From Undaria pinnatifida (taxonomy: Eukaryota; Sar; Phaeophyceae; Laminariales; Alariaceae), in assembly GCA_012845835.1 (NCBI GenBank), contig JABAKD010000026.1, forward strand, positions 706,983 to 770,982: a stretch of 64,000 bases of DNA. Reading direction: 5' to 3'. Shown piece after piece: positions 5,940 to 49,531 of the stretch (its first letter is position 1; every line of letters begins with the position of its first letter). The notes beneath the pieces were generated by a model. The model did no database searches, was not told the DNA's origin, and saw nothing but the letters and a program-made list of their open reading frames with translations. Made by a program: the position numbers and the translations under genes.

Positions 5940-6413
5940 CCAGACAGAGTCAAACAAGCAAATTATTAGTTTTACTTTAAATTCGACGGTGGTGAGCTTG
6001 TTGACGTCAAACTTGTTGATGGGGAACTTGTTGATGGGGTCCATAAGGTGCTTGAACCTTTGCTTGTTGAAGTGCTTTGTCCCGATGTCGGCGAGGTTGT
6101 CCTCCGTCGGGACGTGATAGATGGAGATTCTTCCCTCCGTTACCAGTTCTCAGATGAAGAAGAAGCGCAAAGCGATGTGGGTGGTCCTCGAGCTGAAGGA
6201 CCGGTTCCCCAATGAATGTAGGGTAGCCGTGTTGTCGCAGTACACTGGCATTTGCGCAATCTTCTTTCCGAATCCAAGCTCCGTCAGTATGTTTGAGCAA
6301 AACACTGCTTCCATCAACGCCAGGGCGGACGCGACCAGCTCCGCTTGCATGGTGGACATCGCAGTCAGACCTTGCAGCCCCGGCCTGAAGCTTATCGGAG
6401 CGTTTGCCAGCAT
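5940..6413 (-). pseudogene. Copia RNase H, broken
   Basis: The minus strand reads STMQAELVASALALMEAVF, then CDNTATLHSL and SSRTTHIALRFFFI. These are the Copia RNase H blocks STMEAEYVA, DN-A-L and RTKHI. A frame change follows, then ADIGTKHFNKQRFKHLMDPI, the usual C-terminal ADIGTK block. RNase H would remove the RNA strand after reverse transcription. The frame break shows it is inactive. Confidence 0.75.
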
Positions 6414-7789
6414 CGTCGCGTAGCTTGAGGTCGACCTCCCGTTGTCAGGGTTGTTTGCCCAGTTCGAGTCCGAGAAGGTCGCAGCTTTAAACCAGCTTTC
6501 CTTGGGGTGATGCTGAAGTTGGTCGTTCCTGCTAGATAGCGAAGAGTATGCTTTGCCGCCACCTTATGCACCTTGCTAGGTTTCGCCATCGGGCGAGCCA
6601 GTTGGCCTGTCGCGTACATGATGTCATACCTCAGCACTTGCGCAATGTACATGAGCGATCCAACGATCCCTTGGTACTTGCGCGTCTCCTCCTCGTTGAG
6701 AAGTGTGTCCTCGGGCTGGTTGTTCAAGATTTGGGAGCCATAACCAGTTGTACTAGTCTGCTTGCAGTCCGACATCTCGAACCGTTCAAAGATTGGTTTG
6801 CAGTATGCCTCTTGGAAAATAGTCAAGGTACCTGCCTCGCGATCCTTCTTGATACCCATTTCGAGTACGAGAGATGCTTCCCCTATGTCGGTCATATTGA
6901 AGCGCTTTTGCAGCTTCCCTTTCACCATTGAAACGGCGTTAGAGTCGTTGCCGGCCAGAAGAATGTCATCGACGTAGAGAGTCAGGTAGATCTTGGCCCC
7001 GTTGTTATCGTACAAATACAGGCACGGGTCTGACTTGAGTGCGACTAAGCCAATCTCGACAAGCACGGAATCTATGGTGTTGAACCAGTTGCCTGGGCTT
7101 TGAGCAAGTCCGTAGAGGCTCTTCTCCAGCTAATTTACTATGCCACCTCCATCCTTGTCCTTTACCTCGAAACCGGGTGGTTGTTCAACGAACACTTGTT
7201 CTTGGATGTCGGCGTAGAGGAAAGCGGTAGGAGCATCCATCTGGTCGAAGATGAGGTTGAACTCCACGGTGATGCACGCCATCATTTGCACGCTCTGGAT
7301 CCTGCACACCGGAGCGTAGGTGCTGCAATCAAGCCCGGGAATTTGGTTCCAGCCCTGGGCCACGAAAGGACCCTTGAAGGAGCCGTCGGCCTTGCGTTTG
7401 AACACCCACTTGGACTTGATGCGCCTCCTTCCCGGAGGGACGGCCAAGCGCGGAACGAGTTTGTAGACCTTGCGGTTGTTGAGGCTTTTCATCTCGCGTT
7501 CGGCAGCTGCGTTCCATTTCGCTGCGTCCGGTGAGGCCCGTGCTTCCTGGATGGTGCGTGGAACGTCTGGTTGCACTGCCCCTACGGCGTATGCGTATTC
7601 CGTGACTCCCAATGTGGCGTCCATGTGCGCGACGTCAGAAAAGTCCCCCTTCGCGGGAAACGCGTACAAAAGCCGACGAAGCTTGCTGAGGATCTTCTGG
7701 TTGGGCACGCGTGATATCGCCCGGGTAATCCTGGTGTCAGGAGGGGCTGATATGGAGCCGTGACCACCACGAGAACCACGCCCACTCAC
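6392..7789 (-). pseudogene. Copia reverse transcriptase (RVT_2 type), frameshifted
   Basis: The N-terminal half (7130-7789) contains AAAEREMKSLNNRKVYKLVP, KSKWVFKRKADG and APTAFLYADIQEQVFVEQPP. The C-terminal half (6392-7066) carries the active site YVDDILLAGN near 6976-6947 and the thumb/connection motif GSLMYIAQVLRYDIMYAT. A frame change between 7067 and 7130 separates them. The enzyme would copy element RNA into DNA in the virus-like particle. The catalytic aspartates remain readable but the frame is broken. Confidence 0.85.
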
Positions 7790-8242
7790 CTAATCACGTC
7801 CACCACACGTCGCGATCCCTCCCCGCGCAGATGCACCACACAAAGAGCTACCGCGGGTGTCACTCCCACTACGAGATGAACCACGCCCACACGCGGTACG
7901 ACTCCGCGATGCAGCACCAACTGGAGCAGAACCAGTACCCGACGTACCAGGCGGCGACGCAGGACCAGATGATGAACCGGCCAGAGCAGGACCGGAAGGT
8001 GATGCAGCAGGAAAAGGGTCAGCGGAGCTAAGCCCAAGGTCACGGTTGTTGACGGTGGAGATGTCATCGAGAAGCTCGAGAACAGACGGGTCCCCGACGG
8101 CATGATTGGAAGAAAGCGCATCGGCCTAGTGGTTGGTGGTGTAGTTGCGCACATCTCGGATCATGTCGTTCCGGTCGGCGTAAGTGAACTCCCCGTCGTC
8201 AAAACCACGCTCGTCCGACGAAAGCGGCGCGGGAGTCGTTTT

Positions 8243-9176
8243 TCATGAAGATAACGTTGCGACTTTCCCGCACCCGTCTCGTCTGAGCGTTGTAGAGACG
8301 GTAGGATTTGCTGTCCAGCCTGTAGCCCACCAACCGTCTTCTCCACGCACGGCTTTCCAGCTTCTTGGTGTGCGTCTCTTCATGCACAAACGCCGTGCCC
8401 CGACCATCCGAATGTGTCCAAGGTGCGCATCTTTGCCGTAGAGCGCCTGGTACGGTGTCCTGTTGTGCAGGGCTGCATGAGGAGTCCGGTTGCTCGGGTA
8501 GATTGCCGTGTGCATCAGTTCTCCCCAAAGAAGGCTCGGCAGCGTAGAATCAGCGAGCATGCAACGCACGATGTTCATGATCGTCCTGCCTGCACGCTCA
8601 TTTGCTCCGATCTGCTGGGGGGTGTTCGGCGATGCAAATTGTAGCTGGATGTCAATGTCCAGGTAGTACTGTCGGTAAGCCGCGCTCGTAAACTCGGTTC
8701 CCTTATCCGCACGAAGCACGTGGATACGCTCGCTGCGGGGGATGACGGTCCCTTTGTTGAACAACTCGAGGGCGTCAGTGGAGCAAGTCTTATCCTTCAT
8801 GTGGACGACCTCATTCCACTTGGTGTGATTGTCGACAAACTTGGCGGTGTTTTCGAAGCCGCCCAACGGTAGGCGTGAAGGGACCAAGGGTATCGACGAA
8901 TACGATCTGAAAGGCGCGTGAAACGCCGTAAACGGCCTGATTTGGGTGCGTCTGTTGAGAGCTCTTACCAAGAGCGCACGCACTGCAGTCCTGCACGTCG
9001 CCGGTGTAATCGATGCTGTTGGCTGCCTCCTTTCTCATCACATCCAAGGTCTTGCTGTTGATGTGCCCCACGCGCCGGTGCCAGAGACTAGCAGTCCCCA
9101 CCCGCAAGGCAAGTCCGTCAGGATCTTCCCCCAGGGTCTGCCGACTGCCATCCCCATCGCCGAGCTTCACGGTCAT
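8243..9176 (-). pseudogene. Copia pre-integrase zinc region and integrase core
   Basis: LWHRRVGHINSKTLDVM and DCSACALGKSSQQ give the HHCC zinc region. The catalytic core follows: FVDTLGPF carries the first Asp, LRADKGTEF the second (near 8707), and GANERAGRT the Glu (near 8599), with exactly 35 residues between the second Asp and the Glu. A frame change between about 8811 and 8980 separates the zinc region from the core. It would insert the cDNA into host DNA; this copy is broken. Confidence 0.85.
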
Positions 9177-9286
9177 GGATCAAGTGATCTTGCCGGTGTC
9201 ATCCACTCCTCAGATTTTCATCGGGACGACTACGTCCCCCGACTCCAGCCTGGGGTTGTCCGGTTAGAAGAGGGAGGCCACTCCAT

Positions 9287-9655
9287 TCAACAGCGCAGCG
9301 GTGACGGAAAAGAGGTCGCGGAGACGAGGTTGGTCCCCAGCCCCGGTACTAAGACGACACGGAAGGAAACTTGCCTATCGTGGCCGCTGTCGTCAGCGAC
9401 CGTGCCAAAGAGAACCCCCGTCGTAACGTCGTGAATAACGTGCTGCCCAGTGGCAATGATCGGGAGCGGGATCCGAAGGTCTTCAATGTCACGCATGTGA
9501 GCCCGCACGCCAGGCGTAAGCGTAGGATCTAGGTAATTGTCCGTCGCTCCGCTATCCACCCACATCGGGTTGGACGATCCGTCGGAGCGAAAAGGAGCGA
9601 GCGACGACTCCGCCGCAAAAGAAGCCATGAAAGCACCGAAGTACTCGGAAGGCAA
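9287..9655 (-). pseudogene. Copia aspartic protease
   Basis: The active-site motif MWVDSGATDNYLDP lies near 9565-9524 (DSGA in place of the commoner DTGA). It is followed by IPLPIIATGQHV and a hydrophobic strand before VPGLGTNLVS, which matches the Copia protease end (VPGL--NLLS). It would cut the Gag-Pol polyprotein. The frame is open across the domain but disconnected from gag and integrase. Confidence 0.8.
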
Positions 9656-9964
9656 GTGGTGGTTCCGCGAAGACGACGCGGATGAGGCAGACGCGGAAGC
9701 CGCCGGCGAGGCGGCGGGAGCTGCAGAGGCGTCGAGAGCGTTGAAGGAACACCCGAACGTCGTTGGTTCCGAAGGGGCCTAAGACGCCTGGGGCGCCGCC
9801 GCCTGAAACGGCTGCGGCAAGTGGGAGAAATCGGCCAGACCGGCTGCCTGAAGCAGTACCAGGTTCGCAGCCAACCCTCAAAGCTCCTTTCGCTTCTTCT
9901 TGTTCCGGTTGTCCTGCTGAGCCTTGCACTCAGCATCGTCGTGGGTCCTCGTGCGGTGAAAGGA

Positions 9965-10797
9965 TCACCACTTAGACTGTCCACTCCCCCCACTTCCGTG
10001 CTTCTTGCCTGGCTTCTTCCCTTTCGTCAGTCGGGACGTCTGCATAGACGTCGGACAACCTCGCTGGAAATGTCCAAACTCCTTGCAGCGGTGGCACTGG
10101 TCGCTTCTGGACGCGGCCATCGCGGCCCCCCTGCCCGAGACCGCGGGCCCCGCCGCCTTGCGCGACTGCTCGTCCACAAATAAGCGGTTGGCCGTGTCCT
10201 GAAGACAGTCGACCGATATAAATTCGTTTCGGTAGTGCATCTCCCGGATAAAGTGGAATTCCGGGCAGACGTCAGGCCCGAAAGCATGACATCCAGGTTG
10301 AATTCGTCTGATACTTTCTCCCCCAGAGTCTCAAGGCGGAGCTTGAGCTCGCATCCCTTGGAGAAGAAGTCAACAGGATCACCACCCGAAACGTGCGTGA
10401 GGACGATGAGCTCGTTGTGGCACGCCCACCGTTCTTCCTGGGTGTGGGCGTCGAACCGCGAGTTCAGAGCCGCCCAAGCCAACTGTCTGTTGCCTTCGGC
10501 GCTAGTGCCCGCCTTTCGGTGAGCCTGAACGGTGATCCGCGCCGAGCCGGTATTTGCGAAGAATAGGAGGGAGTAGAGTCGGCTGTCGGCCTTATCCCAA
10601 GCGGTAACATCGGCCAGAGTAGCAGCCAGAGGGTCTGGCCGGGTCGATTCGCGTAAGACCGTGAGAAGCTCCGTCGCATGGATGTTGATGACGTGCTCGA
10701 AGCTCTCCTTCCACACGCGAAAGGTAGACCCAGAGCATTGTCCAGTGGAATCTAGTAAACGGTGGAGCCCAGAACTAGAGCTTGATGAGTTCGCCAT
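9965..10797 (-). pseudogene. Copia gag with CCHC zinc knuckle, frameshifted
   Basis: I chose the Met at 10797 because a serine-rich start (MANSSSSSSGLHRLL) opens the conserved part; upstream in-frame sequence looks like leader. The body has a Gag-like helical stretch (ELLTVLREST, WAALNSRFDAH, FNLDVMLSGL). After a frame change near 10200-10240 it continues into CHRCKEFGHFQRGC, a classical CX2CX4HX4C knuckle, and a basic tail (KGKKPGKKHG). It would form the particle shell and bind RNA. Confidence 0.75.
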
Positions 10798-11729
10798 AGC
10801 TTGGAGACAGGAACACGCGATGGGTGTGATTGAAAAGCGCTGCACCCGCAAGACGCCCCGATCACCTGAGACGGGCCAGTGCGCCTGAAATGTGTGGGGA
10901 AGCTCTACGCAGAGGTATGGTGAAAGGTAGGTCCCAGAGCCGTAGTTGGCAACCCGAGTCCGCCGGAAGCTCGTAAGCCCCCCGCTCGGACGACTGCGCT
11001 CCCGTGAGCACAGCTGTGACCAACCGCAGTTGACGCGGCTGCGGTGATGTGGCGAGTAGTCAGCTCCGGCCACTTAACTGGTCCTGCAGGTACTCAGCGT
11101 GGTGCACTGCGTATTGTTACGCGTCTTTAAGCGCAAACTTACGTGAGCTAGCACGTGTGAGTAGCTGTAGCAGCGGCCGGCTACCAGCTAGCAGTCGTAT
11201 CCTCAACCTACACACGAGATCAAGCCGGCAACAAGGTATGGGGAAGATGTCTTGGACAGACTACGCCTCGCGAAGAATCTAAGCGCAGGTGGTTTTGGTA
11301 TTCGGAAGTCAGTTGCAAACACACGGAACCGAGTATAAGAAATAACGATAATCCGCGCGCAGAACCAACAACCCGCACAACTCTATTCACCGACCGGAGT
11401 CAGCGCCTAGGAACTGCGCCCCCGAATGCTTTACACAGACAGTTGCGTACCGAATATGCAGCCGAGAGCCCAGGTGATCAGTCCGGGCCTAATAAGCAAG
11501 CGGGTTAAATCAGTGTGACCTCCAGCAGAAAGCTGCTTCCAGCAGTAGCTCCGCGCAGAAAAATATCCGAGATATCCAAATGCTGCAGAATCCAAAAAAA
11601 AAAAAAATCCTGAAGGGTTCAAAAATTGCGAATCCTGGAGGACGGGTGTGCCCTCCACAGCACTCGGCGACAGCAGTCGACGCGCAGTCGCCGCAGGCCC
11701 CCACTCACACACACGAGGCTATAACAACC
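10798..11729 (-). other. 5' leader of the old Copia element
   Basis: About 930 bp between the 5' LTR and gag. It holds no recognisable domain; a run of A lies near 11588-11600 on the plus strand. The primer-binding site should abut 11729 on the minus strand, but I could not match it to a tRNA end by eye. Confidence 0.5.
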
Positions 11730-15033: not shown

Positions 15034-15302
15034 TGTTAAGATACGGCCTCGGAAGGCCTGAGAGTATCCGAATTTGAGATCATTTGGATGGGTTTCGTAT
15101 GATAAGGTTGGCGGTTTATATTCGGGGAAGTTAGGAATTAGATCGGAGGCACGCGCCTCCGATCTCAGAAGCTATCCCGGGCTCTGGTGGAAACGAATAA
15201 AGCTACATCTCTACGAAGGAACGAAAGTGAGTACTCTCCGAGGACCTGCTCAATTGGCAGACCTGCAGGGGGCACTCTGTGTCCCCCACCCTTAATTTCA
15301 CA
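15034..15302 (+). repeat. Left (5') LTR, 269 bp
   Basis: Identical in length to 27330-27598 with a single visible difference. It contains an inverted repeat GATCGGAGGCACGCGCCTCCGATC that can form a long hairpin, and a GTGAGT donor-like site near 15228 that could serve splicing of element RNA. Confidence 0.93.
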
Positions 15303-15697: not shown

Positions 15698-17380
15698 GCA
15701 TCAGTTCACCGCCAGCTGGTCATAGACCACTCCGCAGGGAACTGCCCGAGCCCCACCCATCAGACTTGTTTGCTCCGCGCTCTGCGAGCATGTTGCACAG
15801 CACATATCCGCGAGTTGCCAGCACAAGCCCCAAGATCGGCCATCGACTCGTACTTTTTTTTTCGCGCTTTGGGGCTCGGAGGCATATGCACGACATGCCA
15901 CGGACAAGCATGCTGGAATCAACCCTTCGAATGACATTCGAAGGGGACTTCGCTCGCTGAGAGAGCCCATCGCCCAGCACATCCTTGCTGTCGGTGCCAG
16001 ACCGTCCTTCGCGGGACCCCCTTGGACTAAGGGCACCGTGCTCTAGGAGCTCATGTCGGGGCTCCTTCCTTGTGATCTACCTGGGAAGAAACAGGCGGTG
16101 CTCGTGGAATGTTTGGGCTTTTTCGTTTGGCGAATTTTCCAGTACACGCGTTATCGTATGGGTTTCAGTACATACGTCGATCATTCTGGTGCGTCGAACA
16201 AGAAGCTGTCCTTGTGCCCCTTTCTGCCGAAATTAGTACAAGCTACGAATTTGGCACCTCGGACCCCTCTCCGATCTTTCTCGATCAACAGCGTTCCACT
16301 ACTGCTGTCCGTCGCGTAGCTTTAACCACCATCATTTTTGCAGAGGTGTCAACTACAGTGCAGCGCAATGGGCTCGCTGTCAATGCCTGCCATATACCGC
16401 CAGATTCTCTGCTGTAAAAGTCACTGTACAGCAGCCAAGCCGCCTACTTTGCTCCTGCTCATACACCACATAGCTCGACCCTTCACTGCCCCAGCGTCCA
16501 CAGTTACAGCACCGCAGCTCTGACACCCCCCACTGCTGTGCGAGTGCTCCTTGCAAGTTCGATTCGAGAGGTTTTTGTTTCGTCCTGGCCCCTCCGTGAC
16601 TAGAACTTGAACCTAGTGAACGCTGAAGCTCTGTGCTGGCTTTTTGGGCAAGGCTGTTGGTGTGTGCGATGCCCTATATTCTCCCATTCATGGGTACGCG
16701 GCGACTACAATACCACTTTCTGTGTATGCACAGCTGTGACCGTGCGGCACTCCGCACTGCTGTCAACGTAACTGTCCCTTTATCGGTGGGAGTGGGTACG
16801 GATTTTTTTTCCAGCTGTCCGGGCATTAGGCCGTCTTCCTGCCCGTACATGTGCTGCCCTTCACGATATTGCTAGGGTCTACGCTGGAATTTTTTTTTTT
16901 TCTTCTCTGCACATGTTCGGACAGCTACTGCCCGTTACAGAGCGCTTACTACACAGTTCGCGGAGATACTGCGCTTCACAGTTGTTACCAGTGCAGTGGA
17001 GAACAGCCCGTTTAATGCGGTACCTTTGGGGGCAAACAGCCTTTCTATTCGACTGTGGGCGTGCACATTTTTCTACAGCTGGTGTTGGTACTACACTACC
17101 CATCTTGGTGCGGTTGAAATTACCGTTACCTGTGAACACAGCAGTGATACTGCAGCAATCAGCACTACTGCAGGCGCGACCGTTCCCCTTCAGTGCGGTC
17201 GGGGGAAACTACTTTGTTTGTGGGGGTTATACTGCCCGTTTTTTTTTTAATATACGGTTGGTGCGCGAACGTATACTGTCCCACCCCCCACCACACTACT
17301 GCTGTGGGGGCAGATGCTGCCCATTTTTATACGGTTGGCTGCGCGATTCTTTCACTGTGTTCCACCCCTACACTACACCT

Positions 17381-17795
17381 AGGGTAAATGCTGCCTGTTT
17401 TGGTGCGATGAGTGTCAGCGTGTTGGGTGACCTTTCACTGTGCTCCCCCCCTACACTAAACCTAGGGTAAATGCTGCCCGTTTTGGTGCGCTGAGTGTCA
17501 GCGTGTTGGGCGATCTTACACTGTGCTCCACCCCTACACTACACCTAGGGTAAATGCTGCCTGTTTTGGTCCGATGAGCGTGGGCGTTTTGGGCGACACT
17601 TTCCTGTGCTCCCCCCCTATACTACACCTAGGGTAAATGCTGCCCGTTTTGGTGCGCTGAGTGTCAGCGTGTTGGGCGATATTACACTGTGCTCCACCCC
17701 TACACTACACCTAGGGTAAATGCTGCCTGTTTTGGTCCGATGAGCGTGGGCGTTTTGGGCGACACTTTCCTGTGCTACCTCCCCCCGCCTAGGTT
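17381..17795 (+). repeat. 83-bp minisatellite, five units
   Basis: The word AGGGTAAATGCTGCC falls at 17381, 17464, 17547, 17630 and 17713, each exactly 83 bp apart. A sixth, degenerate unit (AGGTTGAATGATGCC) lies at 17791. Alternate units share variants (CTGTTTTGGTCCGATGAGCG versus CCGTTTTGGTGCGCTGAGTG), suggesting that a two-unit, 166-bp block was duplicated. Confidence 0.9.
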
Positions 17796-18191
17796 GAATG
17801 ATGCCTGTTCAAGTGCGATGGTTGCAGACGTACCCTTACCGTGTTGCACCCCCTGCACTGCGGTTAGGGTCAGTGCTGCCCAGTTTTGGCTCCTTGTACT
17901 GCGGTTCATGCGGGCGTTACCCATATACCCTACGGTCAGACTGGGCGCTGCTCTTATGTTGCGGTTATGATGATTGGTACCTTGTTACTGCTGTACTCCT
18001 CTTATACGTCTAGTTGACGTGGCTTCTACCATCACTGAGGCTGGACGGAGTCAAGGCCCATATTGTTGCTGTTTGCTGAAACACAGATATACCGCTCCTT
18101 GGAGCAGGAACACCACAACAATTTATCTGTCTCCATACCTTCTTCACGTGTCGTTCCTATCCCCCCCCCCCCTTCACTACACCTAGGCACC

Positions 18192-20294
18192 ATGTCCACC
18201 AGTGACGATGGGGGCTACTCGGGGCAGGCTGAGGTCTTCCACGAACCCCAACCTGGATGCCCACGAGACAGGGAGAGCTCGCTCGAGATCCCGCGACTCG
18301 AGACAGGGGGAACCACCGGAGGCGGGTTCCGGTGACGAGAGAGAAGACGGAGCACCATACCTCCACCCATTCCCACCAACCAAGCGGGTCGATTCGCTGG
18401 TTCGCGCTGAGAAGAAGACTGACCAACCCCCACCGGACTCGGGGGCGTCTCGACGCTAGCTCTCGCCAGCCCCGGGGGAGCGCCACCAGCTGCCCCCCCC
18501 GCGCTCGACAGGGCACCACCGCCGCCACCTGGGCTCTCCGTGCTCGACAGAGCGCCACCCCCAGGGCTTCCGGGACCGGGGCGCCCATCCCGCCCCCTTG
18601 GACTTGGCATACGCGGCGGCGCGGGCCCAGCGGGCGCTCTTCGACGCCAACCAGACGATAGCACGCCGACGTCGGTTTTACGAAGATATCGAGCAGGCGA
18701 AGACCGCTGCGCGGGGGTCGTCCCTGTTTGCGAAGAGGGCGCAACAAGCTCTCGCTCAATCAGTTGCGTCGGCTGCGGCGGGAGCTAACGCGGCCTCCTT
18801 GCCTTCGTCGCGCCCGCAGGGTGTCGCATCCCATCGACCACGACCCGGGAACGACGCCTTCTTCAAGGGCATCGTCGCGTGCATGGCGTCTGCACCGCGG
18901 GTAGACTTCTCCTCAGCGTTGGCGACCTGCGGTGGTGGAAACGGCCTACGCCCTCCTCCCGTCAGAGAGGCCGGCGTCGCGGCAAGCGGACGTCCTCAAT
19001 GGAAGCGGCCTGGGCTCGCGTGGATTGTACGCCCTATGCTAGACAGACGAGAGCCGCCCCGACCCTTGCCCTCGTCAAGGCCCTGCTGATAGCCCACGAA
19101 GAGGACCCCAACCCTGTCTTTTGGCCGGACCCCGGAGGATAAGTTGGCAGAACGAAACCGGGGAAAATGTCGCGACAGTCGCGACCGCGGGGACCGCAAC
19201 CGTAAGGGTGGCAGCAAAAATGGTGGGGGTGGCGACCACCACCACCGCCGCGGGGGTGACCGCGCATCGGGTGCTGGTGTGCCTGAGGGCGCCGCCGCGG
19301 GGGCAACTTCGGTCCAACAACCGGGGCAGTTGGCCGCCGCTCTGGCGGAGGAATGGCGCGAGAGGACGTTCAGCGTGGGACGGCTCGTCAACCTCCTCCC
19401 GCTCGTCTTAGTCCTCGAGCACGGATCACAGCGAGGTTGTCGTGGTAGCAGGCAACAAGTGTCAAAAGCCATGGCAGGTTGAGCATCTGGGCCTGAGGCT
19501 TTCACCGTCCTGTTGCGTCTGCTGATCACGCACTTCGACGGGGTTGACACGGAGGAGGGCTACACTAAGTTGCATACTTTTGGAATGTGTAACGGCATGC
19601 CTTTCTCTGATTTCAGTGGAGTTTCGCGTACTTATGCCGACCGCTACGCGGAGTGAGCGTGTTTTGTCTCCGGGAACGGATGTGGTGTTGGAGGTGGTTC
19701 GGGTGGCGGCGAATGAGCAATTTCCGGCTCTCCTGCCTGCGTTGTACCCTGGTTCAAAGGCAACAAACCCGCGGCCATACGCCTCGTTGGATGCTATGTG
19801 GCGGACTTTTAGTGACTAATAAGACACCTGCCGTCAACGGCGAAACATTTTTTTCTCTCCCTGTTTCTTCGACGGGAGCGCGGTCATGCGCCCTGTCGGG
19901 GCCCCGGCCCGCAGATCATGGGCGCGGCCAGGCCCGAGTGCCGTCCCAGTCGCTTTCGTGGCAGACGGGATCGAGCCATCATTCAACTGTCGTGCCCATC
20001 GATGATTCATCTGACCCTTGGCTTGACCACACATCGAACTGCTGGCCACTAGAAGAGCATCATTATGCCGAAGGTTTCGCCGTTAAGGCCTCGTTTAAGA
20101 CAGACGACCCTCCCCTTTGGAGCGGCCTCATTTCACCTCGCGCTGGTGCCCTCCGAGAAAACCGAGGGCTTTGCCTCAACTGCCACGAAGACAACCATTC
20201 CTTCAAGCAATGTAGGCATCCTTATATTACTGCGAGTGGCTGCTTGAGCCCTGAACTAGGCCAACTTCGCGACGATGACGCACACCGACGTTGA
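18192..20294 (+). pseudogene. Ty3-type gag with zinc knuckle, frameshifted
   Basis: The ATG at 18192 is the first in good context (CACCATGTCC) and opens MSTSDDGGYSGQAEV, but a stop falls at 18335. Further Gag-like pieces follow in other frames: ARAQRALFDANQTIARRRR (from 18616), HFDGVDTEEGYTKLHTFGM near 19530-19590, VVLEVVRVAANEQFPALLP near 19685-19740, and DSSDPWLDHTSNCWPLEEHH near 20005-20060. The last piece ends with CLNCHEDNHSFKQC (near 20170-20212), a CX2CX4HX4C knuckle. This is a capsid plus nucleocapsid protein broken by at least four frame changes, which contrasts with the near-identical LTRs. Confidence 0.7.
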
Positions 20295-21498: not shown

Positions 21499-21651
21499 TC
21501 AGCTGGACGCTATTCCCGTAGTTTTACGGAAGAATCGCGCCTCTTGTCAAGCAGAAACAGCTCAGAGCCCCTGTCCCTTCGGGTGCAGTTAGAGCAGTTT
21601 TCTTGCGATTATTCGCTAAAGAGCGAAGAGGCCACGGCGCGAGAAACCGTG

Positions 21652-22190
21652 GGTTCGGACTCGCGTCGTGCTCCCGAGGCCTGGTGTTCCTGAGGGGGAC
21701 ACTACAGGCCCAAAGAGCCGAGGACTGGTGTTCCCAGAGGGGGACATTACAGACCCAAATGCCCAACGAGGCTACCGACGGGTTGGCACCGTCGGTGTTG
21801 GACTCTTTTTCGGGTGTAATGAGGGCGGCTTTTTACGAGTTTCCGCCAGCGAGTGAGGAGGACCCGAGGCGAGAAACCCCAGGTTCGGACTCGCATGTTG
21901 CTCTCGAGGCCTGGTGCTCCCGCAAGGGGACACTACAGGCCCAAGTAGCTGAGGACTGGTGTTCCCCAAAGGGGACATTGCAGACCCACAAATGTCCAAC
22001 GAGGCTACCGACGGGTTGGCACCGTCGGTTTTTGCCATTTTTCGGGCGCAGTTAGAGCGGATTCTCGCGCTTTTCCGCCAACGAACGAAGAAAGACCCGA
22101 GGCGAGATACCACGGGTTCGGATTCGCGTCGTGCTCCCGAGGCCTGGTGTTCCCGGACGGGGACATTGCAGCCCCAAATTCCAACACGGC
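21652..22190 (+). repeat. ~231-bp tandem repeat, two full units and a partial
   Basis: GGTTCGGACTCGC-type starts fall at 21652, 21882 and 22115 (periods 230 and 233). Each unit holds GAGGCCTGGTG, GGGGACATTACAGACCC and CCGACGGGTTGGCACCGTCG. The third unit breaks off after about 75 bp, immediately before the NADAR domain. Within each unit a shorter ~52-bp motif (CTGGTGTTCC through GGGGACA) is itself doubled. Confidence 0.85.
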
Positions 22191-22199
22191 TTTTGACCC

Positions 22200-22700
22200 T
22201 TCTCTCAAATACTCCACAGACAAAGTGGTGTTATTCTGGCAGTCCCAATCCTATTTTCCACCGTGGTGCCCTCCGTCGTTTGCCTTGGACGACGTGCCAT
22301 ATTCTTGCGCGGAGCTGGACATGATGGCCGAAAAGACCAAGCTTTTGCAAGACCATCGAGCAGTGGGGCTTATTATGTTGTCGCCTCGTCCAAGCACACG
22401 CAATCGCATCGGTCGAGGCGTGCGCAACTTTGATTCCGCTGTTGGGGACAGGGAGAAGCAAAACGCCGTGTGACCTGGCACCTACGCCAAATTTACGCAG
22501 AACCCAGCCATGAAAAATAATCTTTTGAGCTCTGACAACAAGCTTCTGGCTGATTCCAGCCCTCTGAACCCAGTGTGGGGCATTGGCCTCCGGGCGGATG
22601 GTCCCAAGGCCAACAACCCATGCCAGGGGAGAGGAAAAACTTGCTCGGTGAGGCACTTTCTGCCGTTCGCGCAGCTATTTGCGACAATGAGACTAGGTCG
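22200..22700 (+). pseudogene. NADAR (YbiA-like, former DUF1768) domain inside the Ty3 element
   Basis: The plus strand reads, in order, the NADAR blocks: FALDDVPYSCAELDMMAEKT (canonical: DG-YP--E-YMMA-KA), LGR-like RIGRGVRNFD, YAKFTQNPAMKNNLLSS (canonical: AKFSQNP-L---LL-TG), DSSPLNPVWGIGL (canonical: EASP-D-IWGIGL), and NLLGEALSAVRAAI (canonical: NLLG-ALM-VR). The Glu of the E-YMMA block is kept. A TGA at 22471-22473 interrupts it, and a frame change near 22620 moves the NLLG block to another register, so this copy is inactive as read. Known NADAR proteins are N-glycosidases acting on riboflavin intermediates or on ADP-ribosylated guanine. Any role in the element is inference. Confidence 0.85.
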
Positions 22701-23957
22701 GCGCACCAGGCCTCCCCTAGTCGGTTCCGCACCTGCACTGCGAGTGCAAGAACCAGGAAATCTCGTCCGCGCCGCAACCGGACCGTTAACAGCGGCCAGC
22801 GCTCGCAAAGCTTCCCCTTCGGCGTTTCCGACCTATTTCTCGGGCGCGTTGGCCAATGAAAAGCCGTGAAGTTGTGGAGATAGCTTCTAGCGTCGGCCCT
22901 GACCTTGCGATGTCAGAACACTGCCCTTGTTTCGTCGAGGGTACTGTGACGCTGGACGACGTTTTGTTCACGTATGAAAGTCGCGTATATCAGTCGAGCA
23001 ACGCTCGCTCGGAGAGGCACTGAACTCCTATAGATTTGGGGACCGGCAGCATTGCTTGGGTTCCCAAACGCCTCCGAGGATACTGGGGGGAACAAAGTTC
23101 TGCATATCCTCCGGCCACAAGCCATAGGAGAGCATTGGCAAAGTGGGGACCCTCAATGCACAAGTCCAGCGGTAGCTTGAGTTCGTCACCGCGTTCGATA
23201 GCACACTCGAGTACCGCAAAGGCAGCGCCAAGGGCATCGCCGATTTTTCCGGCCCGTTTTCCAGAGCCCGCTACGGAGTACAACCGCAGTGGCTTGAAAG
23301 AAATCAACCTCGTGGGGTTAACAAGCCCCAACCCCGTTGGAGATAGCGGTATCTACCTCCTTCGGACCCGCGGGCTGCGCGCTCCCTCCTCGCCGATGCC
23401 AGGAGTCGGTTCGGGTGGACTCGCGCCCCTCGCTAAAAGCACTGTCTTGGGTGGGCTCGTGCCCCACACCGAAAGCACTGCTTTGGGTGGACTCGAACCC
23501 CTCGCCGAAAGCACTGTCTTGGTTGGGCTCGTGCCCCGCATTGAACATGCTGCCTTGGGTGGGCTCCTTCTCACCTCTACCGCGTTTCACGATTTTCACA
23601 CACACGAGCCACGTATAAGGATTGACGGCCTTCATGCTTCCCCGGGGAGATTCGTCGCTCGTGTTTCTGCCTCCGTCGCCACTACCGAAGGCTGTACCGG
23701 CCGCGGGTCGATTTCACCTGCCGCCGACACTGTTTGCGCTTCGGTTTTTGCCATACCCATCGAGGGTGGCACGGGCTCTGCAGAAGCCCTGGCTGCAGCG
23801 ACGCCCATCGCACAGCCGACTTATCTATCCCGGAGTTCTTTACAGGAGACGGCCCCCGCCGCGACCACCGGTTCGACTGTGTCCGTCTCCGCCATGCTTG
23901 GCACTCCAGCCCCTCCGTCGTCGACGACGTGCCGACTAACAGCGACAACAACAGGAA
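22701..23957 (+). other. Region between NADAR and integrase, low-complexity frame
   Basis: A plus-strand frame is open from about 23036 to 23974 but is rich in S, P, A and G and shows no catalytic motif. I searched it for reverse transcriptase (YxDD), RNase H (TDAS) and protease (DTGA/DSGA) signatures in all plus frames and found none. It contains the 36-bp repeat at 23414-23557. Confidence 0.5.
23414..23557 (+). repeat. 36-bp tandem repeat encoding a 12-residue unit
   Basis: Four units read GGLAPLAKSTVL, GGLVPHTESTAL, GGLEPLAESTVL and VGLVPRIEHAAL. The period is a multiple of three and the differences are often amino-acid-conservative, which hints that the frame was once translated. Confidence 0.8.
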
Positions 23958-24239
23958 ATGCACCCCCGCTGTAGATTATGGATTCGGGCTCGGCTGGGCC
24001 CCTCGGCCATCTTCCAGACGAGGTACAACCCCGCCGCGAGTCCCACGGCCGCGACCGACCCCGTCGACTGCCGCGACCCCTGCTCTTGCCGACTCGCCGG
24101 TCCGCACGGTGCCACTACCGTCCGACCGCGACCACGCAGAGCCTACACGGAAACTCCTCTCTTACGGCTCACGCCTCCTCCTGGTGACACGCCGACTGCA
24201 TATACAAGGTCGGACGCCCTCGGCGACGCTGCTGAGTTG

Positions 24240-26104
24240 CGTTTCGCGGATTCCGTCGCGCGTTATTCACATGCCGATTGGAAGCGCGAACAACACGCAG
24301 AGCCGACGTGCCACGCGACGATACGTTACATCTCTATCGGCCGGCCGTCGGCCCCGCCACCCGACTTCTTAGCATGCTACCCCTCGCCCAAGCGTCCCTT
24401 CCACTCGGACATCCAGGAACTGGCGGGTGAGGGTCGACTACATACAACCGACGACGACATCGTCCTATTCGTCCGTCACCCGACACTCCCGCCAGCAAGA
24501 TCTGACAAACCGAACTCTGTGGGACGAGCTGCTTGCTTGCTAAACGACGAGTTAGCTCGCATCTACGTTCCCCTACTCATGCGCCCTTGGATCATGCAAG
24601 CTTGCCACTCGACGGCCTCCCGCCACCTTGGCACCACGCGCACGTTGCGCATGCTGGAGCGTTTTTATTGGTGGATTGGCATGAGTGTGTGCACCCGGTG
24701 GTGGCTTCGCCACTGCTTGAAGTGCCAAGCGCGGAAAACCGCACGGCTGACTGTCCGCTGGCCCATCATCACAATGCCTTTGCCGGAAGGTCCAGGTATC
24801 GCCGTCAGTGTTGACTACTTTGGCCCCTTCCGGCCACACCACGAGGCAACACCTACATCCTGCTGTTTACCGATCGCTTCAGTCGTCGGGCCGACATGTT
24901 CCCCGTCACTGCCGCTGAGTTCACCGCGGAAGGTACAGCCAATATCCTGGTGAACCAATACATCCCCCTGTGGGGGTGCCCGCGCACCATACTCTCGGAC
25001 AACGGACTGCAGTTCTGCTCCAAGCTTTCACAAGCTGTATATCAGCTGTTAGGTGTACACAAGCTTGCTACAAGCTCCTACCATCCCAACTGTAACGGGG
25101 GCGTTGAGCGGGTAAATCACACTATGGCACAAATGCTGGCTATGGTCGTCCACGAGCGACAAGACGACTGGGACTTGCATCTGCCCCACGTCGAATTCGC
25201 TTACAACAACTCTGTCAGCGCGGCGACGGGTTTAGCGCCCAACGAGGTCCACATGGACAGACTTCCACGGCTCCCCCTGACGATTTTCGACCGCAAAGGT
25301 GTCGTGGGACACCAGAGTCTGGCCCGTGACCACCTGGCCTATTGCGATTTGGCCACCGACCGGCATAAACGCGCGAACGACATTGTCCGCGCACACCACG
25401 CCCTCACCGTTTCCCGTGTTAACCGCAGAAACTCCGCCCTCGCCGAAGCGCTGCGTCCAGCACCTAACTTCACTGTGGGTGGTTGGGCATGGGTATACAA
25501 CTCTGCCTCTACCATCCGCCAGGGTGTGAAGGCGAATACCGAAGCCAATGTACTCAAGACCAAACTCGCGCTTAACTGGACGGGCCCATACAAGGTCCTG
25601 GCCGTCGGTCCCTGCTCCGCCGCCGAGACCCCGGACGGCTCGCCGCTCGGGAGCAACCTCCTTTATTTGGATCTCCCTTCCGACCTGCCTGGTTCGGACG
25701 CTCGTCGGCGTGTGGCTATCGAGCGCTGCAAACCCTGTGCCAACCCCCACGACAGCGGGGATATGCCCAAATACCTACCGGCGGGGCTGACACAGTATGT
25801 GCTCAACAAATTCTCCAAGAAGTCCCCGCCGTACCACGTCACTCAAGACGACGTTTCTACTCCCCTCCAACGGCTGGAGGTGGAGCAGATCACTGGTCAT
25901 CAGTCGGTACGGGGGCGAGGTGGCGTCATCGCGGTGCTATACAAGACGCATTGGGCGGGACTCTCCGAACCGTCCTGGGAGCGGGAAATGGACCTTCACC
26001 TTCTCCCGCTCCCACATCTTGCGTTATTGGGCCGGAACCCCGGACCAGCACCGCCAAACCAACCGCCTTTACCGCCGAATGCGGATCGGGGCGGCACAGC
26101 GTGA
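24240..26104 (+). pseudogene. Ty3 integrase (HHCC, DDE) with chromodomain
   Basis: The H2C2 zinc region is at CHSTASRHLG and RHCLKCQARK (about 24600-24740). VSVDYFGPF gives the first Asp (24813). A frame change near 24840-24895 follows. The second Asp is in TILSDNGLQFCSKL (24998), with exactly 35 residues to the Glu of GGVERVNHT. From 24896 to 26104 the frame is open for 402 codons. It includes the GPY motif (NWTGPYKVLAVG) and a chromodomain-like stretch QRLEVEQITGHQ to YKTHWAGLSEPSWERE near 25870-25985. It would insert cDNA, and the chromodomain would direct it to marked chromatin. The single break is in the core. Confidence 0.88.
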
Positions 26105-26384
26105 GCTCTCCCGCAACAACGGGGAACGTTTCCTAGCGCCGGGCTACGCCTGTGTTCCCCGCACCGATTGGCTCCGTCGCTACCACGACACCGTACTTCC
26201 TAAGGGAGCCCACTTTTGCTACAAGGGAGACAATGGTTTATGGTGGCTAGGAAAAATCAGCGCGAGCACTACCGAGGACAAGGTATACCTGGTCCGCTTT
26301 CTGGACGACCCGGGACCGATTAAACTCTTTCTTCCCCCGGCGCGCTACACGACTTCAACAGGAGCCGTACGAGGCTCTTGGTGA
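25990..26384 (+). pseudogene. C-terminal Tudor-like module of the Ty3 polyprotein
   Basis: After a frame change close to 26000, another frame continues the protein: SHILRYWAGTPDQHRQTNRL, then GERFLAPGYACVP, then YKGDNGLWWLGKIS (26235-26258 for GLWWLGKI) and VYLVRFLDDPGPIKL, ending RGSW before a stop at about 26382. The pattern of a small residue, WW-GKI, a variable turn, Y-VRFLDD resembles Tudor/agenet-type barrels that bind methylated tails. That assignment is by pattern only. Confidence 0.5.
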
Positions 26385-27329: not shown

Positions 27330-27598
27330 TGTTAAGATACGGCCTCGGAAGGCCTGAGAGTATCCGAATTTGAGATCATTTGGATGGGTTTCGTATGATA
27401 AGGTTGGCGGTTTATATTCGGGGAAGTTAGGAATTAGATCGGAGGCACGCGCCTCCGATCTCAGAAGCTATCCCGGGCTCTGGTGGAAACGAATAAAGCT
27501 ACATCTCTACGAAGGAACGAAAGTGAGTACTCTCCGAGGACCTGCTCAATTGGCAGACCTGCAGGGGGCACTCTGTGTCCCCCACCTTTAATTTCACA
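27330..27598 (+). repeat. Right (3') LTR, 269 bp
   Basis: Partner of 15034-15302, with one visible substitution near the end. C-tract repeats follow directly. Confidence 0.93.
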
Positions 27599-43513: not shown

Positions 43514-46500
43514 CTATGGGACATCCGCGGGGACAGAATGAGACTTCCGCGTAGGAGGGTTAAAAGCTGAAGAGTCCGTCGACAATACTGCAGCACGGTA
43601 GGAAGCAATCATATCTCTGCATTGAGGAATGGCGTTGACATGACGCCAGATACCCATCTGGGTAGGATAACCTTCCAACTTGAGATGATATTGGAAGTTG
43701 GTGAGAGATGCTGCTCCTACTCCCCTTTTATGTCCATCAATACTCTCAACCTTGAACGCACCGATCATAACTTTCGACAATGAGCCTTCGAGATCGGGCA
43801 CGGGAAGAGTGGTCCCTAAAAATAAATCGTCGAGCGCATCAAGGTCAGGGGCAGGGGACGACTTAGGGACATAGTATTTTTTCATCCGGCCAAGGTGAAC
43901 AGTAATCTCGGCGGGGTTGCCATCTTTAGTGACGCGATAAATTACGGGTGACGTTTGCGCTCGTACGGTATATGGTCCACGCCATGGGCTGATCAATTTT
44001 GGATTGGGACCATCAGCTTCAGTGTATGGGCGGTGGATTAATACTTGTTCTCCAGGTTTGAAACTGGGAAACGACAGGGTCTCATTTGCGACCGCTTGCT
44101 TATCCGCTCGCTCTTTAAGATTACGGCGGGCTAGCTCGTATGCAAATTGCAAGTTTTCGACAGTCTGTTTAGAATAGTCGAGCTGTGATTGCGGTGCGGA
44201 GGTGGACGGTACTCCAAGAATGAGATCGACAGGTAGTACAGCTGCACGTCCAAGCATCAGGAAATGAGGAGTTTCCTGGAGCGTGGTAGAGTAAGCTGTA
44301 TTGTGAGCTAACTGGACAGAAGGCAACAGCTCTGCCCAATTATCGCAGGACAAGTTGCTGTACATAGCCAACATATTGTGGACAGTGCTGTGTACACGTT
44401 CTAAGACAGAGTTGCCCTGAGGGCGAAAAGCGGCTGTACGCGTTTTCTTACATCCAAAAACTGATTGTAATTCCTTGACCAATTCGTTATCAAATTCTTT
44501 TCCTTGGTCGGAATGAAGTGTTTCTGGAGGGCCAAACACCGAGAACACGCGTTCGATTAGATGACGAACGATCGTGCAAGCCGCCTTATTTTTGATGGCT
44601 ATCAAAATGACAAATCGAGTAAGATGGTCGATGACAGAAAGGATGAAGCGATTTCCTTGTGATAAGCTTTTATACTCGACAAGATCAACAGCGACGCATT
44701 GGAACGCGCGCGTGACAGGGCGGTGTCCCACAGGCAACTTGGGCGGGCGGTGGGATGACTTGCGGTGTTGGCAAGACAGACACACTTCAATATGAGTACG
44801 GACATCCGTGGACATGGTCGGCCACCAAAATCTATCACGAATGGTATCGAATGTTGCTTTAAAAGCTAAATGACCTCCAGACGCTGGTAGATCATGACAC
44901 GAATTAATGACAATTTTTCGGAGAGCTGTAGGCACTACCAATTGATCGCGGAAAGTGCTACGCTTCCGTAAGTGACCAGGAAGGTACGACCGAAATAGCA
45001 ATCCTTCATTTAAAAAGAAGTAGCTCATCGTGTATTTAGATTCTCCACTAGGGAGTGGGGCCGATGTTGGTGCTCGGAGGTACTCAAAATACTGACAAAA
45101 TTCCTCTTTCTGTAGATCGACGAGTTTCGCGGGGTCTACAGTAGGGAAGACAGACACAGCGCTCATGAATAATTCACGGTCGCTTTCTACAGGTGCTACG
45201 TCGTGCAAATTAGAAGCGGAAAGTTCGTACTCGCGGGGCCCAGGTGGATAGTACGGTCCCTCAATCGGTACATTGCGACAAATGGCGGCTAATCTGGGCT
45301 CGGATGGGATGGGTTCCCCATTGACTTCGCTAAAAGCACGAGACAACATATCAGGCACGACATTTAATTTGCCTGGGACATGTTTGACAGTGAAATCGTA
45401 ATTCTGAAGTGCGATCGCCCATCGGGTGAGCATGTTAGAGGTGTCCTGCATTTTATACAGGTACGTTAGTGCTTGGTGGTCGGTACAGCATGTGAAATGC
45501 TTGCCCCATAGGTACGGACGCCAGTGGGTGACAGCCCAGACCACAGCACAACACTCTTTCATGGTGGCACTATAATGACGCTGGCTTTTTGAAAAGCGGT
45601 GACTATAATACGCGATGATATCAAGATCGGAATCGGAGCTGCTTTCGCGTGAGCGTTGAGCGAGAAATGCTCCTACTCCTGCTTCTGAGGCATCGGTATG
45701 GACAATAAATTCCCGAGTAAAATCTGGGTATTTAAGGACCGGTGCGGAACTAAGGGCACGCTTTGCGCGAGCGAATGCTTCACGTTGCGCGGGCCCAAAA
45801 GCCTTCTTGAAAGCGGTCTTTTTGACATAATCCTTACGAGTGAGTTCAACTAGCGGTGCTGTTATTTCAGCATAACCGTCTATAAAACGGCGGACATAGT
45901 TGAGTGTACCTAAGAATCCGCGATTATCTTTGATACACTCAGGCTCAGGCAGTGCTAAAATGGCTTTGACACGGTCGGCACTGATTGAAATACCTTTTTC
46001 CGAAATGACATGGCCAAGATACTCGATTTCTTTCTGACCGAATTGAAGTTTGGTCGGTTTCAAAGTTAAGCCAGCTGCCTGTAACGCTGAGAACATTTGC
46101 TCGAGGGATTTCAGGTGAGCTTCAAACGTAGAATTAAGACAAATAATATCGTCCATGTACGTAAGAATACCCGACTCAGGACCAAGGTGGCCGAAAGTGA
46201 CAGACATCATGTGTTGAAACAACCATGGGGCATTACAAACTCCAAAAGGCATACGTTTAAAACAAAACTTGCCGGTCGGAGTGACGAATGCTGTCCGGTC
46301 GATGTGCTCTTCTGCGACGGGTAGCTGCCAGAACGCACTGAGGACATCGGCTGTAGAGATGAATTTGACGCCTCCGACTGCATCCAGACAGGAATCTAAG
46401 TTCGGGAGGGGCCAGCTCTTGCGGACAATGTTACGGTTGAGGGTATGACGATAATCAACACAGAAACGAGGGCTACCGTTCTTCTTTGCGACAAGCGTAC

Positions 46501-47449
46501 ACGGGCTACCCCACGGGCTGGGACGTTCTTCGATGATGCCCCATTCAAGCATATCGTGAACACACTTATCAATGACAGCTTTAGCTCGAGGGTTGGCGCG
46601 GTACGGGGGACGATCGATAGGTCGGGTGTCAGGAGGCAAAGGAAATGTTGCTTCTGCATTGGTGCAACGACCTAGCTCTGACATTGACAAGGCAAAGACA
46701 GGACGGTATCGAGCGCACAAATCTAGGACAGAGACTTTCTGGTCAGATGAGAGCTTAGTGTTAGTAAAAGCTTTGGACAGGGGACCTTCAATCTCGGATT
46801 TGGCTTGAGCGATTTCATCAACTGATGTAGGAGTTTTCGCAACGGCATTAACGTGCAATTGATCAGGCGTCACTACGGACACAGTGAATAACTGACCAAG
46901 ACATAAATCAATAGGTAGCGCAACCCCATCAGAAGACAGGTTTGCAATTTGCACGGCTACTGAACCATCAGCAGCATGCCAAGTAGCAAGAGTGCGAGCG
47001 ACAATAATTTTCTCGAACACTGACGAGCTACTGGACTCCAAAAACTCAAGCTCAGACATTATTAGGGGTTCTACGACAACAGTAGAATCGTGCGCGGGAA
47101 GACAATCAGTAAAAGCTACGACAAGGGCCTCGTGTCTCGGTTTAAGATCAACACGTTCACGCAACCTGACATCGACTCCTTCTGCATCATGGTGGACAGC
47201 AGCGACTGACAGGTTAGAGTCGCTAGAGACAGTGGAGGGATCGGCGGGGCGGGAGGCGGGGTAGCTAGTACGATGAACTGCTGGTATAGAATCACCAGTA
47301 GAAGGAAAAGACATTAATTGGTTTTCCCAATCAAGAATAGCTCCAAAAATAGACATGACACTGTTATCAAGGAGTATTGAATCGGGACCAAGAGACGGTA
47401 CAACTAATGCTTCGACAACGTGCGTAATCGTACCAAGGGTGAGTGAAAA
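43514..47449 (-). CDS. pol: Ty3 Pol: end of protease, RT, RNase H, integrase, chromo-like tail
   Basis: The open frame extends 5' to 47563, but coding homology begins near 47449, where it takes over from the protease frame (about 1,310 residues). Numbering from the 47563 end: protease end ILLDN at 63-67; RT block CVDYRHTLN at 368 and active site YMDD at 469-472; RNase H HTDAS at 622, Glu 670, Asp 695; integrase zinc residues His 890, His 898, Cys 928, Cys 931; catalytic Asp 960, Asp 1019, Glu 1055 (35 residues between the last two); GPY motif SPWRGPYTV at 1192. The C-terminus (about 1266-1325: FKVESIDGHK to LKLEGYPTQMGIWRH) resembles a chromodomain with altered cage residues. No stop or frameshift lies inside. 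Confidence 0.95.
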   Translation of the reverse strand, partial: FSLTLGTITHVVEALVVPSLGPDSILLDNSVMSIFGAILDWENQLMSFPSTGDSIPAVHRTSYPASRPADPSTVSSDSNLSVAAVHHDAEGVDVRLRERVDLKPRHEALVVAFTDCLPAHDSTVVVEPLIMSELEFLESSSSSVFEKIIVARTLATWHAADGSVAVQIANLSSDGVALPIDLCLGQLFTVSVVTPDQLHVNAVAKTPTSVDEIAQAKSEIEGPLSKAFTNTKLSSDQKVSVLDLCARYRPVFALSMSELGRCTNAEATFPLPPDTRPIDRPPYRANPRAKAVIDKCVHDMLEWGIIEERPSPWGSPCTLVAKKNGSPRFCVDYRHTLNRNIVRKSWPLPNLDSCLDAVGGVKFISTADVLSAFWQLPVAEEHIDRTAFVTPTGKFCFKRMPFGVCNAPWLFQHMMSVTFGHLGPESGILTYMDDIICLNSTFEAHLKSLEQMFSALQAAGLTLKPTKLQFGQKEIEYLGHVISEKGISISADRVKAILALPEPECIKDNRGFLGTLNYVRRFIDGYAEITAPLVELTRKDYVKKTAFKKAFGPAQREAFARAKRALSSAPVLKYPDFTREFIVHTDASEAGVGAFLAQRSRESSSDSDLDIIAYYSHRFSKSQRHYSATMKECCAVVWAVTHWRPYLWGKHFTCCTDHQALTYLYKMQDTSNMLTRWAIALQNYDFTVKHVPGKLNVVPDMLSRAFSEVNGEPIPSEPRLAAICRNVPIEGPYYPPGPREYELSASNLHDVAPVESDRELFMSAVSVFPTVDPAKLVDLQKEEFCQYFEYLRAPTSAPLPSGESKYTMSYFFLNEGLLFRSYLPGHLRKRSTFRDQLVVPTALRKIVINSCHDLPASGGHLAFKATFDTIRDRFWWPTMSTDVRTHIEVCLSCQHRKSSHRPPKLPVGHRPVTRAFQCVAVDLVEYKSLSQGNRFILSVIDHLTRFVILIAIKNKAACTIVRHLIERVFSVFGPPETLHSDQGKEFDNELVKELQSVFGCKKTRTAAFRPQGNSVLERVHSTVHNMLAMYSNLSCDNWAELLPSVQLAHNTAYSTTLQETPHFLMLGRAAVLPVDLILGVPSTSAPQSQLDYSKQTVENLQFAYELARRNLKERADKQAVANETLSFPSFKPGEQVLIHRPYTEADGPNPKLISPWRGPYTVRAQTSPVIYRVTKDGNPAEITVHLGRMKKYYVPKSSPAPDLDALDDLFLGTTLPVPDLEGSLSKVMIGAFKVESIDGHKRGVGAASLTNFQYHLKLEGYPTQMGIWRHVNAIPQCRDMIASYRAAVLSTDSSAFNPPTRKSHSVPADVP

Positions 47450-49473: not shown

Positions 49474-49515
49474 CTCCAAAGACTTGGAATCAACACGAAC
49501 AAGTTGATTTTTCAA

Positions 49516-49531
49516 CTGCCGTCAGACGCCA
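49516..49531 (-). promoter_or_regulatory. Primer-binding site of the Ty3 element
   Basis: The minus strand reads TGGCGTCTGACGGCAG, one base after the 5' LTR. It would pair with a tRNA ending CTGCCGTCAGACGCCA. The isoacceptor is not identified. Confidence 0.7.

Follow-up and report, generated by a model that had tools for sequence, protein, structure and literature searches.

A NADAR domain in Pol of Ty3-type retrotransposons of Undaria pinnatifida, and a derivative set without reverse transcriptase

What does a NADAR domain do between the gag and integrase regions of an LTR retrotransposon, and is it a lasting component of such elements or a passenger in one damaged copy? The question is raised by a locus in Undaria pinnatifida (GenBank assembly GCA_012845835.1, contig JABAKD010000026.1, positions 706,983 to 770,982 of the forward strand). 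The whole stretch of 64,000 nucleotides that was analysed is called the window here, and positions are counted from its first letter. The original prediction, made from the letters alone, placed a NADAR domain with an in-frame stop codon and a frame change inside a Ty3 element bounded by 269-bp long terminal repeats (LTRs), and held that a functional version, if any, must be elsewhere in the genome.

The NADAR element of the window

All features of the element are on the plus strand. The 5′ LTR (15034–15302, 269 bp, starting TGTTAAG) and the 3′ LTR (27330–27598, 269 bp) are direct repeats of each other with one mismatch, and the former shows 95–96% identity to the LTRs of a complete relative (type I, L009/L010). 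No exact target-site duplication flanks the two LTRs (CGCA on the left, CACA on the right). Since the LTRs differ at one base in 269, this defective copy moved and inserted recently. Identity to L009/L010 is 95% in the first 2.8 kb and 92% in the final 4.1 kb; between these it is 73% in the gag region and 80% in the NADAR region.

Repeat analysis of the leader shows six in-register copies of an 83-bp tandem repeat (17272–17866). The copy number of this array varies; in the L009 leader (L009 3429–5241) an 84-bp unit occurs 19 times in register. A degenerate gag region (18460–20294) follows, which at the 73% identity given above aligns with L009 4749–8711, the segment that holds a gag-like open reading frame with a CCHC knuckle. 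The zinc-knuckle motif C-x2-C-x4-H-x4-C is readable in the window open reading frame 19611–20294, and the motif is also present in the matching open reading frame of the complete relative. Just upstream of NADAR there are approximately three copies of a unit of about 230 bp (21578–22178); a single L009 stretch (about 9136–9365) matches all three.

The NADAR domain (PF08719) occupies approximately positions 22234–22680, as delimited by profile matches and by alignment to a NADAR that is intact elsewhere in this genome, and is broken. The translated piece 22474–22869 matches PF08719 with E = 6.9e-9 and 36.6 bits, above the cut-off of 35.1. Independently of it, the piece 21949–22473 yields E = 9.6e-8 and 32.9 bits, just below the cut-off when taken alone. 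A chance match is ruled out by these E-values. Positions 22234–22644 share 66% identity with the intact domain, and a final piece is found in another frame at 22605–22679. Both predicted lesions are present, a TGA in frame at 22471–22473 and a frame change near 22635. A PF08719 match at E ≤ 0.001 is found in 40 of 40 aligned protein relatives.

Residue numbers used here are those of the P. nicotianae NADAR as given in the accessible part of PMC11543638, mapped by motif using the structure-match alignment. The equivalents of E43 and K50 are both kept in the window copy, but the W89 equivalent is Gly, the D130 equivalent is Asn and the E125 equivalent is Asp. With Asp in place of the Glu that defines the YbiA subfamily at the E125 position, the window copy itself would fall outside that subfamily. 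Compared with one type I copy, the window NADAR shows dN = 0.152 and dS = 0.539. Thus its ancestors were probably under constraint for most of the divergence from the type I copy.

Downstream of NADAR the element has no reverse transcriptase (RT), and this the original prediction overlooked. A deletion junction at 22971–22981, placed by alignment to the complete relative, marks the loss of approximately 2.09 kb (L010 129–2218), which removes a spacer with the protease motif, the RT and the beginning of RNase H. A tblastn search of the element with the Pol sequence of another Ty3-type element of the window (43514–47584, minus strand) did not find an RT, whereas the same query does match the integrase (E = 1.7e-23). 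A remnant of the RNase H region with the following spacer is present at 22981–23457 (71% DNA identity to L010 2219–2672). The integrase shows a zinc-binding H2C2 domain (24567–24740; PF17921, E = 1.3e-12; open reading frame 23940–24953) and a core domain, rve (24833–25087; PF00665, E = 1.9e-7, 31.7 bits where the cut-off is 32.6; open reading frame 24815–26104). The location of NADAR between gag and integrase of a Ty3 element is borne out by the PF08719 matches, the two integrase domains and the zinc-knuckle open reading frame.

The integrase tail displays a chromodomain-like stretch at approximately 25900–26030, a position transferred from L010 through the 92% alignment. In this intact relative the chromodomain profile (PF00385) gives E = 0.026 at L010 4702–5160, below the cut-off. 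A conserved segment of the tail (25998–26384), with 704 protein relatives at E ≤ 1e-5, is possibly Tudor/Agenet-like (Agenet E = 0.17, not significant). Over the whole tail segment, L010 4702–5595 and about 25900–26384 in the window, the chromodomain-like stretch thus precedes a conserved part whose resemblance to Agenet/PWWP domains (E of about 0.17–0.18) is not significant. If the chromodomain-like and Agenet/PWWP-like stretches are real, there may be two chromatin readers in one integrase.

Further elements, or their remains, are seen in the window. The second Ty3-type element, from which the query above was taken, extends over 43514–49521 (minus strand); by eye, its Pol frame is open for 1,356 codons and a gag-like frame for 476. 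Ty1/Copia-type remains were recognised by eye from translations at 6392–11073 (minus strand), and the open frame 60298–61008, also judged by eye, resembles the last part of a non-LTR reverse transcriptase protein.

Complete relatives and conservation of the domain

A search of the genome (511,146,479 bases, 68 contigs) with PF08719 gave 1,454 first-look candidates. All 150 of the 150 that were scored match the profile (best E = 1.4e-49), and such counts are lower bounds and come from the top-ranked candidates. At twenty of the 150 places the open frame around NADAR has 2,300 codons or more, with 2,473 codons in nine of them and 2,371 in five. When every seventh of the 150 ranked places is sampled with 10 kb of sequence each, 18 of the 20 stretches contain NADAR, RT, RNase H and integrase in that order, and the remaining two yield NADAR alone. 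The domain order proposed as a check thus does repeat.

A one-off chance capture of a host or bacterial NADAR gene, now decaying, would be in keeping with the broken state of the window copy. The 150 matching places, 20 of them in long open frames, the same Pol position of NADAR in two element types and dN/dS values well below 1 (below) put this explanation practically out of the question. The original prediction had named two outcomes as adverse to it, no significant profile match and a one-off host pseudogene. The profile E-values exclude the former and the genomic matches the latter.

The two element types with long open Pol frames, I and II, have NADARs that are 49% identical. The complete type I element, L009/L010, is 15,460 bp long and its 267-bp LTRs are identical to each other. 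A gag-like open reading frame with a CCHC knuckle is followed by Pol, with the order NADAR, LLDTG protease motif, RT (E = 1.3e-24), RNase H (E = 2e-30), H2C2 and rve. A YLDD motif is also present in this Pol. Protease profiles yield E = 0.12 or worse, and the protease is recognised by the LLDTG motif. LTRs, a zinc-knuckle gag and the protease, RT, RNase H, integrase order of Ty3/Gypsy elements are all found in the complete relative; the window copy is without RT. Type II (L011/L012) has the same domain order, with identical candidate LTRs of 92 bp and no evident target duplication. NADAR is situated at residues 408–557 of the 2,473-codon frame in type I and at residues 319–469 of the 2,371-codon frame in type II, and the intact relatives score 172.7 and 167.1 bits against PF08719. 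NADAR is a stable component of this Ty3-type family, encoded inside Pol upstream of the protease motif.

The junction of gag and Pol differs between the types. In the complete type I element a single TGA (L009 8174–8176) separates gag and Pol, which are in the same frame, and this suggests stop-codon readthrough between the two in type I. The two long frames of type II differ from each other, unlike type I gag and Pol.

Sixty-five of the 150 scored NADAR copies were read. Nine contain stops, four are short and 52 are full-length and stop-free; intact copies elsewhere in the genome, which the original prediction made the condition for a functional domain, do exist. The positions equivalent to ADP-ribose-binding and catalytic residues of the P. 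nicotianae structure (PMC11543638, accessible part) are largely conserved. R79, V81, W89, D130 and W133 are kept in all 52 intact copies, K50, G78 and E125 in 51, and E43 in 48. Of these, E43 and K50 (48/52 and 51/52) bear on catalytic competence, and the Glu at the E125 position (51/52) is that of the YbiA subfamily. The D86 equivalent is not conserved, Y84 is replaced by Phe in 52 of 52, and at R93 there is Lys in 35 copies and Arg in 17. The element NADAR is likely an active hydrolase. The Glu of the NLLGEAL motif was considered as the catalytic residue and rejected, since type II has Arg there and E125 is the residue named in PMC11543638.

Catalysis would not be needed if NADAR were a binding module, either a reader of ADP-ribose or a structural component of Pol. 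The stretch of Pol that precedes NADAR does evolve fast (24.5% identity between types I and II over 277 aligned codons), and Pol ends in possible chromatin-reader domains (not significant), which would make recruitment modules plausible in this family. However, binding alone probably would not require the catalytic Glu, Lys and Glu, which are kept in 48, 51 and 51 of the 52 copies, and a pure binding role is considered unlikely.

Pairwise NADAR dN/dS in the 52 intact copies is 0.38 for type I (35 copies) and 0.42 for type II (17 copies); most of these copies belong to the better-scoring half of the NADAR ranking, and dN is biased downward by this choice. The 20-place sample gives NADAR values of 0.35 for type I (14 copies, 5 stop codons) and 0.41 for type II (6 copies, 2 stops). 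Corresponding values for types I and II in that sample are 0.27 and 0.37 for RT, 0.36 and 0.25 for RNase H, and 0.30 and 0.26 for integrase; the type I integrase tail, with 23 stops, gives 0.37. NADAR dN/dS is below 1 in both sets, as anticipated. In the 20-place sample it lies near the values of RT, RNase H and integrase or a little higher, and in type II it exceeds the other three. The copies of both sets were taken along a ranking by NADAR score, and NADAR dN is lowered by this. Between types I and II, with synonymous sites mostly saturated, protein identity is 49% for NADAR, 81% for RT, 76% for RNase H and 69% for integrase. NADAR is under purifying selection with most active-site residues kept, and between the types it is less constrained than RT.

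Derivatives without reverse transcriptase

A 240-bp stretch across the deletion junction is found at 40 scored genomic places (750 candidates), the window itself at 100% and 39 others at 97–98% identity. Since the junction recurs at these places, the window copy is a member of a multi-copy RT-less set and not merely a damaged complete element. In the 20 sampled NADAR places the two halves of the junction are both present and about 2.1 kb apart in 7, one half is present in 4, and neither is found in 9 (including type II).

Four other RT-less copies were read at two 56-base sites, and three of these align. The NADAR frame change is common to all three readable copies and the TGA is present in none. 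The frame change of the window copy is, by this comparison, inherited. The fourth copy with the RT-less junction (L203/L204) carries unrelated sequence at the NADAR position, showing that further rearranged forms exist.

The frame-change site is reached by 45 of the best 120 of 278 protein relatives, 25 of them in frame and 20 shifted (three sorted by eye). Programmed frameshifting at this site was considered, but 52 type I and II copies read the whole domain unshifted and it is the RT-less set that shows the shift, so that inherited damage is the simpler account.

As in non-autonomous LTR derivatives, both LTRs are kept (these were read in the window copy only), RT is absent and the junction is multi-copy. 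Because the insertion is recent and RT is absent, the window copy presumably used an RT from elsewhere, with complete relatives as the presumed source. The set as a whole spread while lacking RT and carrying a damaged NADAR, presumably in trans. Since this set has multiple copies, the domain is apparently not required in cis; its product may come in trans from elsewhere, or its function may be dispensable. In the former case the set would move with the proteins of complete relatives, and NADAR would be no more needed in cis than RT. The set reveals the Pol functions that an element can apparently obtain in trans.

Origin, possible function and known systems

The type II NADAR shows up to 55–56% identity to bacterial NADARs (55% over the full domain; best 80 of 500 relatives). 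The best bacterial matches, from a collection of bacteria and archaea, are in a Planctomycetota genome and in Myxococcota genomes. Among solved structures the best match is the P. nicotianae NADAR, 8bau (E = 3e-23, 32–33% identity), followed by E. coli YbiA (E = 4e-8). Types I and II appear in the free trees as two supported clades that lie apart among NADARs labelled bacterial, where metagenome P rows were counted as bacterial by assumption. A single clade for the two types is not rejected (p-AU = 0.435, in a run with 41 of 80 bacterial and 7 of 30 viral loci; the other tree had 34 and 20). A single acquisition by types I and II is taken as the default, with independent acquisition as the alternative. 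A search of viral contigs with the window NADAR gave no relative, and a search with a NADAR alignment gave 30 loci. The sequence relationships point to a bacterial origin of the element NADAR, in agreement with Dinatale et al. (2025, PMC12477816, as available).

Assayed NADARs hydrolyse ADP-ribosyl-guanine in vitro (PMC11125620), and the P. nicotianae NADAR does so as well (PMC11543638), according to the accessible parts of both papers. In the best explanation, to which we give an even chance, the Pol-borne NADAR clears guanine ADP-ribose from element RNA or cDNA. Delivered with Pol into the particle, the domain would be an active ADP-ribosyl hydrolase of the YbiA type. A host or rival transferase would place ADP-ribose on guanines of the element RNA or cDNA, and its removal by NADAR would let reverse transcription and integration go on. 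That NADAR strips ADP-ribose from element cDNA is a best guess, drawn from the enzymology of other NADARs. E. coli YbiA and a phage NADAR cleave guanine-ADP-ribose in vitro but in cells fail to rescue DarT1 toxicity (PMC11125620, accessible part), and thus sequence does not fix the biological substrate. Counting against the clearing of guanine ADP-ribose are the lower conservation of NADAR between types compared with RT and the deviations at D86, Y84 and R93. The multiplication of the NADAR-damaged set also fits a dispensable function.

The domain might instead act on RNA ends or on small ADP-ribose or NAD derivatives, as in RNA repair, NAD-capped RNA or cyclic ADP-ribose signals. Residue conservation and dN/dS fit such a role equally well. 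Dinatale et al. suggest that NADAR has a role in processing of the RNA intermediate of these elements (PMC12477816), and NADARs embedded in polymerase polyproteins of RNA viruses are proposed to counter host ADP-ribosylation or to join in RNA processing (PMC9503650; both as available). However, guanine-ADP-ribose is the sole nucleic-acid substrate shown for NADARs in the accessible parts of PMC11125620 and PMC11543638, and the RNA-end or small-molecule role is held to be possible, short of probable. Bacterial and plant NADARs are also described as N-glycosidases of riboflavin-pathway intermediates (introduction of PMC11125620), and a domain that destroys these reactive compounds would be a metabolic passenger in the element. 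There is no evident reason for keeping an enzyme of this kind inside Pol, and a Pfam scan of gag and Pol pieces from two elements gave no riboflavin-pathway domain; we regard this as quite improbable.

Returning to guanine ADP-ribose as substrate, a more extended reading is offered tentatively. NADAR would be a conserved Pol domain of bacterial derivation, an active guanine ADP-ribosyl hydrolase that shields element RNA or cDNA from a host defence based on ADP-ribosylation of nucleic acids, and the RT-less derivative would parasitise both the RT and the counter-defence of complete copies. If NADAR is an active ADP-ribosyl hydrolase in the particles, this would suggest that algae defend themselves against retroelements by ADP-ribosylating nucleic acids. 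To our knowledge such a defence has not been shown in any eukaryote. The presence of two diverged intact types and many copies makes the question of NADAR function testable with isolated domains.

A YbiA-family NADAR is reported from one Gypsy lineage of Ectocarpus (e.g. Gypsy-12_Ec32; Dinatale et al., 2025, PMC12477816, as available). The arrangement of NADAR in a Gypsy element is thus already published for Ectocarpus; here it is found in a second genome, with the RT-less derivative set as the particular feature of the window. Apart from PMC12477816, no paper on NADAR in retrotransposons was found by title or abstract in a literature coverage that mostly leaves out subscription papers. By published description the Ectocarpus lineage and the present elements share the Ty3/Gypsy type, a NADAR in the N-terminal part of Pol and bacterial NADARs as near outside relatives. 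A putative chromodomain fused after integrase is described for the Ectocarpus lineage; here one intact relative gives a chromodomain match with E = 0.026, below the cut-off. The present elements differ in being from another genome (511 Mb) with two types whose NADARs are 49% identical, and in that the copy of the window is a derivative without RT whose NADAR is broken.

The P. nicotianae NADAR (8bau; PMC11543638, accessible part) shares with the element NADARs the family, by profile, and most of the ADP-ribose-contact and catalytic residues. Unlike the element NADARs, however, it is a separate protein of 189 residues, and its GIG motif is followed by an insertion that they lack. The YbiA-type NADARs of Planctomycetota and Myxococcota (e.g. 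L069–L074) are bacterial genes outside any retrotransposon Pol. The Tx1 LINEs of Crassostrea gigas are also retrotransposons with a NADAR, but they are non-LTR elements and carry it in ORF1 (PMC12477816, as available). In the polyproteins of animal RNA viruses the NADAR is likewise found beside the replicating polymerase, but these are positive-strand viruses with an RNA polymerase of their own (PMC9503650, as available).
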